Shown here: positions 43 through 11,755 of the stretch, in pieces
Layout of the letters: the number at the start of each line of letters is the position of its first letter
Numbering within the stretch: the stretch's first letter is position 1
NCBI GenBank assembly: GCA_002313795.1
Contig: DCCL01000004.1
Location: 4,192 to 17,798 of the forward strand
From: Faecalibacterium prausnitzii
GTDB lineage: Bacteria > Bacillota > Clostridia > Oscillospirales > Ruminococcaceae
Direction: 5' to 3'
DNA: 13,607 bases
Program-made: the position numbers and the translations under genes
Notes under the pieces: generated by a model
What the model was told of the DNA's origin: nothing
The model's input: the letters and a program-made list of their open reading frames with translations, nothing else
Database searches by the model: none

Positions 43-57
43 CTGTTGTTCATGAGA

Positions 58-146
58 GCAAGAATCGTCCCGTGGCCACAAATTTTCAATTCTTGAAAAT
101 TCTTGCCCTCTTGGGACAGCTTCTTGTTGGGGCGTGCCTGCCCCAA
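58..146. repeat. Cluster of inverted repeats downstream of the marR stop
   Basis: Two clean hairpins are visible. AATTTTCAA (81-89) pairs with TTGAAAATT (93-101) across a 3-nt loop, and TTGGGGC (127-133) pairs with GCCCCAA (140-146) across 6 nt. A competing outer pairing joins GCAAGAAT (58-65) with ATTCTTGC (99-106). The 127-146 hairpin lies about 10 nt after the leftward marR stop codon, so it could slow or end that transcript, but no T-run follows it on the minus strand. Its role is undecided. Confidence 0.5.
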
Positions 147-155
147 ACCCTGCTG

Positions 156-596
156 CTAAGGATGACAAACTTGTTTTAGACAATCGCAGTAGATTTGCCC
201 ATAAAGCTCCAACAGGCGGCTCAGCTCACGGCTGTTCGCTTCACCCATTTGTGCCATAACCTGTTCCTCCTGCTGCAAAAGTGGTTCTACTACATCTTTA
301 CAGAGCTGTCTGCCTTTTGGGGTCAGTGTAATGCCCTTGTTCTTTCGATTCTCTGGCAGTTCCCGGAGTACAAGAACTTCTTCATTCAGAAACGCCCTTA
401 TCACCAAATTGATTGACTGCTTTGGGTAGTGCGTATCTTCGCTGATTTGTTTTTGAGTGCAGCCATCGCCCAATTCATAGAGTTCTGCCAGAACCATCAG
501 GCTGATGTAATTCAGCCCTTTGGATTTTGCGTATTCTTCATAAACACGATCCATATTTCGGAGCTGTTCTATCAGTCGGTTTTGTATGTTTTCCAT
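156..596 (-). CDS. MarR-family transcriptional regulator
   Basis: A 146-residue winged-helix regulator of usual MarR length. The helix-turn-helix lies at about residues 47-72 (TQKQISEDTHYPKQSINLVI) and the beta-wing at about 76-92 (ELPENRKNKGITLTPKGR), flanked by the N- and C-terminal helices that form the dimer interface in this family. It is the second gene of a leftward pair: the MATE exporter stop is only 9 nt upstream, and the ribosome binding site AAGGA (602-606) overlaps the end of that gene, so the two are co-transcribed and probably coupled. MarR proteins paired with MATE pumps (for example MepR with MepA in Staphylococcus aureus) are ligand-released repressors of their own operon; the same is inferred here. 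The inducing ligand cannot be told. The pair appears AT-richer than the citrate genes, in keeping with transfer. Confidence 0.9.
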   Translation of the reverse strand: MENIQNRLIEQLRNMDRVYEEYAKSKGLNYISLMVLAELYELGDGCTQKQISEDTHYPKQSINLVIRAFLNEEVLVLRELPENRKNKGITLTPKGRQLCKDVVEPLLQQEEQVMAQMGEANSRELSRLLELYGQIYCDCLKQVCHP

Positions 597-605
597 ATGT
601 GTTCC

Positions 606-1937
606 TTATGCATAATTATATTTTGATTTCATTGTTTTGAAGTAGTAGGCCGAGAGAAAGGCACTCAAAATCTCCGCCGTTGGCATAGACAGCCATACAC
701 CATCTACCCCTAGTATACCCGGTAAGACCAGTAACGGCAAGAGCAAAAATATCAGCGTTCGGAACAAAGAAATGATTGCCGAGGTACATCCATCATTCGG
801 TGCGGTAAAAAAGCCAGATGCAAATAGATTGAATCCCATCAGCAAAAATGCCACGGAAAACAGGAAAGTACCTCGCACAGCCATATTCAGAACAGTCTGG
901 GAACCTTCGGCAAACAATCGAGCCAGAGGTCGGGCAAGTGGGAAAGCGGCCAAAAAACTCAATACGGAAAGCACCGCAATAGTGCGCAGTGCTGCTCGAT
1001 ACAGAGCGCGTAGTTCTGTGTGGTTGGCACAGCCGTACTGAAAACTGACCACCGGGGCGATGCCTTGTACATAGCCTGCATAGGCTGCAGATAAAATGGT
1101 CTGCACTGACAAAATTATTGCAGCAGCAGCTACGCCATCAGCCCCTACCAACCGCATCAGAATCACATTCATGGCAATCATAGTTACTGTAACTGCCAGC
1201 ATTCCGACCATCTCACTCAAGCCATTGACACAGGCTTTGCGCAGTGCTACGCCATCAAACCGGGGACGAACAAAATAAAGTGCATCCTTACGGTTGCAAG
1301 CAAAAAACACCACACCAATTACACTTTGCAACACATAGCCAGCTGCTGTGGCGTAGGCTGCACCAGCTACGCCCAGCGGAAATACCGCCATCAGCAGGTA
1401 ATCCAGCACCATATTGGTGACACCACCTGCAATAGACAGCCCAAAGCCCAGTCCGGGTCGACCTGCCGCGACAAAAAACATCTGGAAAACAATACTAACC
1501 ATAGCGAATGGAATCAGCAGGAAGATGGGTACTGCATAGGCTTCACACAGCGGATAAAGTGTGGTGTCAGCTCCCATAGCGTATAAGATAGGCTTCCGCA
1601 GCAAAATGCCTACTATGCAAAATACTGTGCTAATAATCACACTGAACAGCGTAAAAAGCGAAAAGTTCTCTCGTGCCTTCTGCGCATTGCCCTCACCCAT
1701 TTGGCGAGACACCAGCGCACAGCCACCGGTTGCAATCATGGTACCGATAGCCAGCGCAATGGCTAAGAACGGCCCCGCGATGCTGACAGCAGAGAGTGCA
1801 ACTGTGCCCAATAGATTGGACACGAACAACTGATCGACGATACTATAAAGATTCATGAAAATGTTAGACAAGATAGTTGGCAGTGCATATTTCAAAAGCG
1901 ATGCTGTCGTGATTCTAAAATTCAGATTGTTTTTCAC
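606..1937 (-). CDS. MATE-family multidrug/metabolite exporter
   Basis: A 443-residue polytopic inner-membrane protein of the length and hydrophobic pattern expected of 12-helix MATE antiporters, which export cationic drugs or metabolites using a sodium or proton gradient. The N-terminus shows the typical MATE start (ALPTILSNIFMNLYSIVDQL, about residues 14-33), followed by a second family-typical stretch around ALSAVSIAGP. The closest known type is the MepA-like branch. The start codon is GTG (1935-1937), supported by AAGGA at 1946-1950, 8 nt upstream; an ATG inside the spacer is out of frame and stops after three codons. A strong promoter and a palindromic operator candidate lie directly upstream and marR follows in the same operon. 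Substrate is unknown. Family assignment is firm; calling it a drug pump is inference from the MarR pairing. Confidence 0.93.
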   Translation of the reverse strand: MKNNLNFRITTASLLKYALPTILSNIFMNLYSIVDQLFVSNLLGTVALSAVSIAGPFLAIALAIGTMIATGGCALVSRQMGEGNAQKARENFSLFTLFSVIISTVFCIVGILLRKPILYAMGADTTLYPLCEAYAVPIFLLIPFAMVSIVFQMFFVAAGRPGLGFGLSIAGGVTNMVLDYLLMAVFPLGVAGAAYATAAGYVLQSVIGVVFFACNRKDALYFVRPRFDGVALRKACVNGLSEMVGMLAVTVTMIAMNVILMRLVGADGVAAAAIILSVQTILSAAYAGYVQGIAPVVSFQYGCANHTELRALYRAALRTIAVLSVLSFLAAFPLARPLARLFAEGSQTVLNMAVRGTFLFSVAFLLMGFNLFASGFFTAPNDGCTSAIISLFRTLIFLLLPLLVLPGILGVDGVWLSMPTAEILSAFLSAYYFKTMKSKYNYA

Positions 1938-1971
1938 AGGGACATTCCTTTCTCGGTTATTTTTGTTTACA

Positions 1972-1986
1972 GTAAATTATATTTAC
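1972..1986. promoter_or_regulatory. Palindromic operator candidate for the MarR protein
   Basis: GTAAAT (1972-1977) and ATTTAC (1981-1986) form a perfect 6+6 palindrome with a 3-bp centre. It covers the expected transcription start just downstream of the -10, a usual place for a MarR dimer to block initiation. Size and symmetry suit the family; binding is inferred. A second inverted repeat, GATAAAT/ATTTATC (2017-2023 and 2028-2034), lies just upstream of the -35 and could be another site. Confidence 0.45.
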
Positions 1987-1987
1987 C

Positions 1988-2015
1988 ATTATATATGGAA
2001 ATCCCTGTTTGTCAA
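1988..2015 (-). promoter_or_regulatory. Sigma-A promoter of the MATE-marR operon
   Basis: On the minus strand a perfect -35 TTGACA (2010-2015) is separated by 16 bp from a perfect -10 TATAAT (1988-1993). Transcription would start near 1980, leaving about 45 nt before the GTG start. This is the strongest promoter seen in the window, which fits an operon held off by a repressor. Confidence 0.75.
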
Positions 2016-2086
2016 TGATAAATTTTGATTTATCGGCGAAAGATGATTTTGCTATGGCTTAAATACGGAACCTCAGCCGTTTTACT

Positions 2087-2123
2087 GCGTACGTGCGTAC
2101 GAACCTCCTGTACGCACGTACGC
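2087..2123. repeat. Perfect 14-bp inverted repeat
   Basis: GCGTACGTGCGTAC (2087-2100) is exactly inverted at 2110-2123, with a 9-bp spacer. Each arm is itself rich in GTACG/CGTAC steps, so the element can form either a long hairpin or several dimeric protein sites. It lies between the exporter promoter and the oriT-like region. A replication, transfer or regulator binding site is possible; no function is shown. Confidence 0.6.
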
Positions 2124-2171
2124 GGCAATTTGCCCGAAACGCACCCTATACAACCGTCCCCCCTCGAAGAG

Positions 2172-2216
2172 CCCACTACACTTTGCAGACCGCAGGGCTG
2201 AAAGTGTCATAGTGGG
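2172..2216. repeat. Long imperfect hairpin in the mobile-element noncoding region
   Basis: CCCACTACACTTT (2172-2184) pairs with AAAGTGTCATAGTGGG (2201-2216) except for a three-base TCA bulge, giving a 13-bp stem around a 16-nt loop. A second small hairpin, CACTTC-CGCA-GAAGTG (2223-2238), follows. There is no T-run, so these are unlikely to be plain terminators. They are part of the structured region that accompanies the oriT-like site. Confidence 0.5.
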
Positions 2217-2298
2217 TTATTACACTTCCGCAGAAGTGCCTTTTCCTCGCCGCAGACAGCCGGGTATGCCTTTTGTGAAGCCTCCTTTGCGGCGAATC

Positions 2299-2420
2299 CA
2301 CATCGCCCACAGGCGATGTGCGCAGGGATTTCAAGGGGTGCGGGTCGCCAGTGGCGACTTCAAAATGCTTGCATTTTGAAGCACTTGACCGAGCCGACAG
2401 GCGAGAAGCAGCACCCCTTG
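2299..2420. repeat. Nested stem-loop array beside oriT
   Basis: Several perfect stems are packed together: CACATCGCC/GGCGATGTG (2299-2307 and 2312-2320, loop 4), GTCGCC/GGCGAC (2344-2349 and 2353-2358), and TTCAAAATGC/GCATTTTGAA (2359-2368 and 2371-2380, loop 2). The last two are enclosed by a 10-bp closing stem, CAAGGGGTGC (2332-2341) with GCACCCCTTG (2411-2420), giving a branched single-stranded fold directly next to the nick-like site. This architecture suits a single-strand initiation or relaxosome region of a transfer system, which is inferred. Confidence 0.5.
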
Positions 2421-2427
2421 GCGCACG

Positions 2428-2472
2428 ACTTTGGTACAAAGTCTAGTGTGTTACACCTTGATAGAGGTGTAA
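2428..2472 (+). other. MOBV-type origin of transfer (oriT) candidate
   Basis: The sequence holds an inverted repeat ACTTT (2428-2432) / AAAGT (2438-2442) followed after two bases by TAGTGTGTTA (2444-2453), then a second inverted repeat TTACACCT/AGGTGTAA (2451-2458 and 2465-2472). The same order and core occur in the pMV158 oriT, where the MOBV relaxase MobM nicks TAGTGTG/TTA; the equivalent nick here is between 2450 and 2451 on the plus strand. A relaxase gene would be expected downstream on the plus strand but none is present. The match to the family core is from memory of that well-studied site; activity is not shown. Confidence 0.6.
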
Positions 2473-2657
2473 AGAACCCCCAATATGCAAAAAGCCCCAT
2501 GCCCAACACCTTGACAGTGCGGACATGGGACTTGATGCTTCCTCGGCCTAGCGGGGTACTCGTAACCAATCCTGACAGGCAGTTGCCGTGTCATTTCTCG
2601 AAAACTGTTTTACGAACACCCAGCTAAATGGGAAAGGGCCTTTTCGCTGCAATGCTG

Positions 2658-4852: not shown

Positions 4853-5012
4853 GGAGGCTGGGCGGAGGGTGGTTCACTGCCAAGCGGCTCAATCGCAAAC
4901 TTTGTTTGCGATAGCGGGCAGGGAACTGCCGGACTGCCCTGCCGATGAGATGCAGTTCCGAGTTCCCTGCTCCTGTACTTCCCCAGCGAGTTATAAAAAG
5001 CCGCCCTGCCGG
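4853..5012. repeat. Structured interspersed repeat, copy A
   Basis: About 150 bp shared with copies B and C near 11,350 and 11,600. Landmarks are GGCGGAGGGTGGTT, the hairpin ATCGCAAAC/GTTTGCGAT (4892-4900 and 4904-4912), and CAGGGAACTGCCGGACTGCC. This copy is the most diverged. It has an extra private stem, GCAGGGAACT (4918-4927) with AGTTCCCTGC (4961-4970). Its right end merges into the terminator of the sensor kinase. No open reading frame in it looks real. Confidence 0.85.
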
Positions 5013-11347: not shown

Positions 11348-11510
11348 ACCTCCGGAGGCGGGGCGGAGGGTGGTTTCCTGCCGGGCGGCTCAATCGCAAA
11401 CCTGTTTGCGATAGCTGGCAGGGAACTGCCGGACTGCCCCAGCCGATAAGATGCAGCTCCATGCCTCCCGCTCCGGTATCTCCCGGCGGGCTAAAAAGCC
11501 GCCTCGCCGG
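11348..11510. repeat. Structured interspersed repeat, copy B
   Basis: A near-identical direct copy of the repeat at 11596-11755, offset by 248 bp, and a diverged relative of copy A. Internal stems are TCGCAAAC/GTTTGCGA flanking CT (11393-11410), GCTGGCAG (11414-11421) with CTGCCCCAGC (11434-11443, one bulged base), and GGCT/AGCC around AAAA (11489-11500). Short frames crossing it (for example minus-strand peptides containing AVRQFPASYRKQ) recur in all copies and are products of the repeat rather than genes. Confidence 0.88.
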
Positions 11511-11595: not shown

Positions 11596-11755
11596 ACCTC
11601 CGGAGGCAGGGCGGAGGGTGGTTTCCTGCCGGGCGGCTCAATCGCAAACCTGTTTGCGATAGCTGGTAGGGAACTGCCGGACTACCCCAGCTGATAAGAT
11701 GCAGCTCCATGCCTCCTGCTCCGGTATTTCCCGGCAGACTAAAAGTCGCCTTTCC
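11596..11755. repeat. Structured interspersed repeat, copy C
   Basis: A direct copy of B with scattered changes, nearly all G to A or C to T relative to B. Two pairs of changes preserve base pairing: C11419-G11436 of B becomes T11667-A11684 here, and G11490-C11499 becomes A11738-T11746. Its right end lies 10 bp from the T-run of the yitT terminator, so all three copies border a leftward terminator. Confidence 0.88.

Follow-up and report, generated by a model that had tools for sequence, protein, structure and literature searches.

Results

Features at the left end of the window

The window, by which we mean the whole analysed stretch of 13,607 nucleotides from a Faecalibacterium prausnitzii contig (DCCL01000004.1), carries at its left end two genes on the reverse strand and, on the forward strand, a series of short sites followed by the chromosome. 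Three of the sites, called A, B and C here, resemble origins of transfer (oriTs). Family I, named in the list, is a group of related elements in Faecalibacterium genomes that is described further below.

54-156, forward strand: site A, oriT-like and orphan, of the type that goes with a MobA/VirD2-like (PF03432) relaxase and its NikA/MobC-like partner
156-596, reverse strand: gene for a marR-type regulator of 146 aa, cargo (PF12802, E 1.7e-5, 25.3 bits against a cut-off of 27)
606-1937, reverse strand: gene for a MATE efflux transporter of 443 aa, cargo (PF01554, E 1e-38)
1988-2015, reverse strand: sigma-70-like promoter TTGACA-16-TATAAT upstream of the MATE gene (a consensus match only, at 12/12 positions)
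2159-2241, forward strand: site B, orphan MOBV-like oriT, CCCACT..ACACTTT/AAAGTGT-CAT-AGTGGG^TTA
2335-2407, forward strand: stem-loop block between sites B and C, missing from the other aligned family I copies
2421-2475, forward strand: site C, orphan MOBV oriT (IR1 at 2428-2442, core at 2444-2453, second inverted repeat at 2451-2472)
2476-2624, forward strand: right end module with a terminator-like hairpin and the element end ..AAAACTGTTTTACGAACACCCAGC; common to family I loci, whose similarity stops here
2629-2645, forward strand: right arm of a terminator-like hairpin behind a carbonic-anhydrase gene (both arms are present in L128 and L129)

Positions 156-2100 had no DNA match in 31 Faecalibacterium genomes apart from their last 24-26 bp, a search of genome contigs and viral contigs with the MATE protein gave no relative confirmed by tblastn, and Rfam at gathering scores returned nothing in the window. 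Two kinds of repeat were seen besides: a near-perfect palindrome at 2087-2123, GTACGTGCGTAC..GTACGCACGTAC, with a similar GGTACGCACGTACGC after site C in the family II elements described below, and an intergenic repeat family of ~160 bp at 4853-5012, 11348-11510 and 11596-11751, the members of which are 82-94% alike.

Site C

An earlier note on this DNA had read the sequence and repeats at 2421-2475 as a MOBV-type oriT, and the letters are there as it described them. The first inverted repeat (IR1) is made of ACTTT (2428-2432), GGTAC and AAAGT (2438-2442) and is followed by a single C and by TAGTGTGTTA (2444-2453); the second, 8 bp long and perfect, pairs TTACACCT (2451-2458) with AGGTGTAA (2465-2472). 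When ACTTT-N5-AAAGT-N-TAGTGTGTTA was sought with up to 2 mismatches permitted, the window gave this single match, with 0 mismatches, and shuffles gave none (0/200). The single-stranded DNA fold of 2421-2475 reaches -13 kcal/mol (z -5.05; 0/200 shuffles equal it), the first hairpin by itself (2421-2452) being less exceptional (z -2.65; equalled by 4/200). The predicted hairpin has its 3′ end at 2450, and the basal stem of the window's copy contains one G.T pair at a place where most other copies have A-T.

By analogy with the pMV158 oriT the nick-equivalent of site C is expected between G2450 and T2451, 8 nt from the ACTTT/AAAGT repeat, and 8 nt is also the repeat-to-nick spacing of pMV158, whose layout and nick dinucleotide are given in the accessible part of PMC5863519. 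As that part presents the pMV158/MobM (MOBV1) system, the likeness extends to IR1, the 8-nt spacing, the TAGTGTG/TTA core and a longer, IR3-like hairpin that ends at the nick (PMC5863519). In pMV158, however, the oriT is followed by its own mobM gene, whereas the site here is chromosomal, relaxase-less and accompanied by two more oriT-like sites.

The company that site C keeps elsewhere speaks for its class. An exact 20-base scan with one genome per species found 46 stretches, 39 of them in Faecalibacterium, whose genomes hold several each, and 7 in MAGs of other taxa. Outside Faecalibacterium, a MobV-type relaxase gene lies at most 250 bp downstream in 5 of the 6 loci (the exception is L056; L051, where the sequence is cut at the site, was left out of the count), and on plasmid pPmC-129-16 the site C DNA is followed after ~40 bp by a gene that is annotated as mobV. 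The relaxase of site C, relC, matches the structure 4lvi ('plasmid recombination enzyme'), which we take to be MobM, at 1.2e-17, and this homology to a solved enzyme is a further likeness to pMV158/MobM; the value for relB, the relaxase of site B, is 1.5e-5. A broader pattern gave 43 matches in eight Faecalibacterium genomes, against 0 for the reversed pattern used as a control, and these fall into two loop classes: 29 have a 5-nt loop (GGNAC), as does the window's copy, and 14 have a loop of 6-7 nt (often GCYTGC). A strong Mob_Pre match, defined as E<1e-45 plus the split gene of G008, lies on the same strand 3-6 kb from ten of the 14 long-loop sites; no relaxase is near the other four (two in G003 and one each in G005 and G007), of which two or more are close to contig ends. 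None of the 29 short-loop sites has a strong MobV match within 10 kb, and 7 kb from one of them (G001) there is a Mob_Pre match of the B type. The split in loop class could reflect relaxase specificity or lineage. It is the recurrence of the same DNA near MobV relaxase genes, in 5/6 loci of other taxa, on pPmC-129-16 and at 10/14 long-loop sites, that bears out the earlier reading, and on these sequence grounds site C is a real MOBV-type oriT. The viral contigs scanned contained no match to the 19-base site-C pattern or to the right-end pattern.

Site-C-like sequences also occur on two plasmid records. A stretch of an Enterococcus faecalis plasmid (L234, LR962153.1 18380-26423) holds a site-C-like oriT with a relC-like gene (40%) on the opposite strand, together with a recombinase and tet(O), and the 3.4-kb uncultured plasmid pRGI00613 (L235, HG796349.1) has a site-C-like sequence and no relaxase match, possibly another orphan oriT.

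Sites B and A

Site B folds into the paired arms CCCACT/AGTGGG and ACACTTT/AAAGTGT, with a 3-nt bulge in the right arm and GGG/TTA at the 3′ end, a layout like that of IR3 in pMV158. By the same analogy its nick-equivalent would lie between G2216 and T2217. The single-stranded fold is exceptional (z -5.51; 0/200 shuffles equal it), and across 31 distinct copies 92.1% of cells are paired, against 34-50% when the partners are slid; covariation is thin, with both-sided changes at 1/13 pairs, and pair 10-44 is unpaired in 21/31 rows. The window's copy is intact, while 8 of the 22 family I copies have an inner-stem mismatch and two a change in the basal arm.

The 31 Faecalibacterium genomes contain 66 B sites. 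Thirty of these lie in the eight genomes searched for Mob_Pre, 20 outside family I and 10 inside it. All 20 outside sites are followed on the same strand by a Mob_Pre match, which is no more than ~110 bp away for 19 of them (in one case weak and truncated by the end of the contig) and ~1 kb away for the last; the inside sites have such a match within 5 kb in 0/10 cases, some of the ten being close to contig ends. Among 23 further B loci (L201-L223, three of them from the Faecalibacterium set), relB adjoins in 22, with a match over 37 residues only in L222 and none in L221, and the site B pattern found four viral contigs, all with relB beside B (4/4). In L008 a Mob_Pre relaxase gene follows the site B DNA after ~60 bp, and in L010 and L011 relatives of this gene come directly after it. 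The relaxase itself passes the Pfam Mob_Pre cut-off and falls below the NCBIfam MobV cut-off (41.6 of 100 bits). The hairpin, the nick-like G/TTA and the Mob_Pre linkage elsewhere make site B a second, MOBV-like oriT. The locus L008 (OY725880.1 56585-72669), from a Subdoligranulum record labelled as a plasmid and as non-mobilizable, carries a tandem pair of modules, each composed of site B, a Mob_Pre relaxase and tet(W).

Site A has a core of 33 nt (122-154), the hairpin TTGGGGC-GTGCCT-GCCCCAA followed by ACCCTGC, in which CCTG/C is presumably the MOBP nick motif; only by analogy would the nick be put between 152 and 153. The hairpin alone is unexceptional (z -1.91; 11/200 shuffles equal it), a compensatory stem variant (GGGGA..TCCCC) exists, and some copies have one-sided stem changes. 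Every one of eight genomes has matches to site A (8/8), 7-19 per genome with pieces counted separately, and the 37 matches in two complete chromosomes correspond to 29 distinct places: in 12 of them mobC (NikA/MobC-like) and a relaxase, PF03432 by Pfam, stand directly downstream, five have remnants of these genes, five belong to family I, four to family II, and three have neither a relaxase nor a family I or II context. At loci where the relaxase is merely 47-48% identical, site A aligns over the 33-nt core only. The pattern had no match in plasmids and matched two viral contigs, in one of which relA/mobC lie beside A. We also considered whether 54-156 might be nothing more than the element's left end; this was dropped, as the other family I copies that reach further share sequence leftward and the same block is found upstream of mobC. 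Sites A and B add two orphan oriT-like sites in the window to the one that the earlier note had found.

Family I elements

Family I as counted here comprises 22 loci in eight genomes (G001, G002, G003, G005, G006, G016, G026 and G036). Because the loci were picked by a match to B, or to C plus the right end, the presence of B and C is partly a result of selection; A and the recombinase were not selected for. Before the count we set aside a variant in F. longum that has A, C and the right end and no B match (L117), right-end pieces without B or C (L118-L120), and two loci whose B matches are relaxase-linked, at 66-67% to relB (L188 and L192). Family I was found in Faecalibacterium, the family-wide DNA search having covered two candidate places per genome.

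The layout of the elements is a large serine recombinase, a small ORF, A, cargo, B, C and the right end, and A-[cargo]-B-C stands in this fixed order on a single strand in 20 of the 22 loci, the exceptions being L186, which has no A, and L116, which is at a contig start. The recombinase is of full length in 14 loci and nearly so in one, has frame breaks in three (L193-L195), is reduced to its first 63 residues in two (L109 and L114) and lies off the contig in two. Both ends could be placed in 17 copies, 16 of them 3.3-3.8 kb long and one, L186, 2.4 kb, and the sites in these delimited copies are 90-99% like those of the window. The three relaxases and mobC were also sought by translated search in the 17 copies and in window 50-2624, and none was found (best E 0.8-7).

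This last result bears on the model of the earlier note, a mobilizable element, read here as a plain one of the Tn4451 type, with its relaxase and recombinase placed left of the window or lost. Tn4451 is an IME that carries a MobV relaxase along with a serine integrase, according to the accessible part of PMC5704250, and a serine recombinase is indeed present on the left of site A in the family I relatives. The relaxase, however, is absent from 17/17 delimited relatives, and A and B with their own relaxase types would go unexplained, which makes this reading very improbable. The recombinase half of the claim has the support of the relatives only (full length in 14/22), and positions 1-49 of the window are unlike their flank. 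The family I relatives resemble Tn4451-type IMEs in carrying a large serine recombinase and a MOBV oriT, and family I differs from them in having no tnpZ-like relaxase (0/17 delimited relatives; window 50-2624), in its two extra oriT types and in its hairpin targets.

Relaxases that might act in trans are close at hand. Mob_Pre matches occur in 8/8 Faecalibacterium genomes searched and PF03432 matches in at least 22 of 31, and these relaxases of the same genus are candidate helpers; G005 contains family I and lacks a strong C-type MobV match. Their presence counts against the reading of the sites as relics, left when mobilizable elements fused and lost their relaxase genes and recognised by nothing now. 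Such decay is visible in the recombinases cut to 63 residues (L109, L114) or broken in frame (L193-L195), in the loss of A from L186 and in the mismatches of 8/22 inner stems of B. It would not by itself predict that three unrelated site types keep a fixed order and strand in 20/22 loci at 90-99% likeness to the window's, nor the varying cargo between A and B beside a full-length serine recombinase in 14/22, a combination unlike random loss; we consider the relic reading improbable.

A second relaxase-less family, family II, was met at L124-L126, L158, L161, L172 and L173. It has sites A and C and no match to B, its serine recombinase is a different one (24-25% identical; L124-L126), and beyond its right end stands a tRNA gene in L124-L126 (Val, Met and Val), with none found in L172.

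Ends and insertion point

From 2629 on, the window is homologous to the chromosomes of two other Faecalibacterium genomes (90.6% over 2.2 kb), in which an unbroken terminator-like hairpin comes after a carbonic-anhydrase gene. Only the right arm of this hairpin stands in the window, and the right end of the element (2624) is inside the hairpin; on the family I reading, a GGCCCTTTCCC-like left arm would lie beyond the left end of the element. Positions 2501-2624 had also been considered as a chromosomal repeat unrelated to the element, a candidate that was dropped, as they are the shared right end of family I. On the other side, positions 1-49 match neither the family I flanks nor anything in the 31 genomes, so the left part of the window's copy may be rearranged or defective, and since no recombinase is in the window, its existence is deduced from the relatives.

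Splitting of a hairpin is the rule in the family. It was seen in 15 of the 17 delimited copies (exceptions L112 and L182), whereas the threshold was reached at 7.6% of randomly chosen chromosomal positions and by 11% of the flanks once shuffled; ten of the 15 split hairpins share a single repeated palindrome type and so do not count as independent targets. An earlier score of flank complementarity gave means of 21.2 for own pairs, 18.8 for cross-insertion pairs and 10.2 for shuffles, and failed to separate own from cross pairs because many targets are of that one palindrome type. The attB sites of serine integrases are usually imperfect palindromes, which may explain the preference for hairpins.

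Cargo between sites A and B

The slot between A and B holds an ORF of 94, 138, 144 or 66 aa in 18 family I loci (the listing leaves out L116, L182, L183 and L186), and in the window it holds the marR-MATE pair. That other ORFs fill the same slot in related elements agrees with the earlier note, which had taken the pair for cargo.

This variability could also mean that the sites are mainly recombination handles, at which Pre/Mob relaxases or homologous recombination swap the A-B cargo, with transfer secondary. The cargo differs between elements whose A, B, C and ends are alike, and the stem-loop block at 2335-2407 is contiguous with site C in L024 and L037, both with a 6-nt-loop C, to which window ~2334-2460 aligns unbroken, as it does not to other family I copies. 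Relaxase-stimulated recombination between oriTs is described for S. aureus in the accessible part of PMC4652767. What an exchange function leaves unexplained is why the sites keep the hairpin and core of their relaxase-linked copies, and as the main role of the sites we regard it as possible, if doubtful. Cargo exchange is compatible with transfer, and the two readings overlap and are not exclusive.

Discussion

We read window 50-2624 as the right-hand portion, or perhaps almost the whole, of a relaxase-less family I integrative element that carries a marR-MATE cargo and three oriTs for different helpers, and we give this reading a probability of roughly 0.78. The wider proposition, that Faecalibacterium harbours minimal relaxase-less integrative elements with a same-strand array of three oriTs, swappable cargo between A and B, a recombinase that targets the loops of terminator hairpins and the use of any of three helpers, seems to us rather likely.

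Starting from the observed order, orientation and copy number of the sites, the missing relaxase, the linkage of each site to a relaxase elsewhere and the insertion into hairpins, we infer steps of excision, nicking, export and re-insertion. The element would be excised by its serine recombinase, and the relaxase of a co-resident element would nick whichever oriT it recognises: at site A a MobA/VirD2-like relaxase with a NikA/MobC-like partner, at site B a Mob_Pre relaxase of ~430 aa, and at site C a MobV relaxase of ~325 aa. The nicked strand would leave through the channel of a conjugative element, and the circle would be put back by the serine recombinase into the loop of a terminator-like hairpin, three oriTs serving to widen the range of helpers. 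Mobilisation of flanking chromosome by a helper is possible in principle.

Relaxase-less IMEs moved by the relaxase of a helper are known under the name iOriT (accessible parts of PMC11389934 and PMC5704250). Family I is like the iOriT elements MGIVflInd1 and MTnSag1 in being integrative, with an oriT and without a relaxase. It departs from them, as far as the available text of those sources tells, in having three oriTs of three relaxase types on one strand where they have one each, and in its serine recombinase, where MTnSag1 has a DDE transposase and the MGIs a tyrosine integrase. An integration module and defined ends are seen in the relatives, the window showing the right end only; an oriT is present and a relaxase absent, for the window as far as it reaches. 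Plasmids of S. aureus offer another comparison, with 2-3 pWBG749-type oriTs that, where there are three, are never all on the same strand in the plasmids covered by the accessible part of PMC4652767. They share with the present case several orphan oriTs on a non-conjugative replicon and a relaxase supplied in trans (PMC4652767), but according to that same part their oriTs are of one family and on plasmids, whereas those here belong to three relaxase types, are integrated and face the same way. In a literature search that covered mostly papers outside subscription, we found no report of family I, nor of any integrative element with an oriT array of three types.

Family I provides a concrete example, open to counting, of conjugative satellites in a dominant gut commensal. 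A very small element, it suggests, could broaden its helper range by gathering oriTs that belong to several types of relaxase, and the cargo slot of such an element can be filled by a drug-exporter pair. Sites A, B and C, taken with their own relaxases, make up named pairs of helper and hitcher, and terminator-like hairpins are suggested as a low-cost target for integration. If the reading is true, the element would be a hitchhiker with a universal adapter that spares the bodies of genes.
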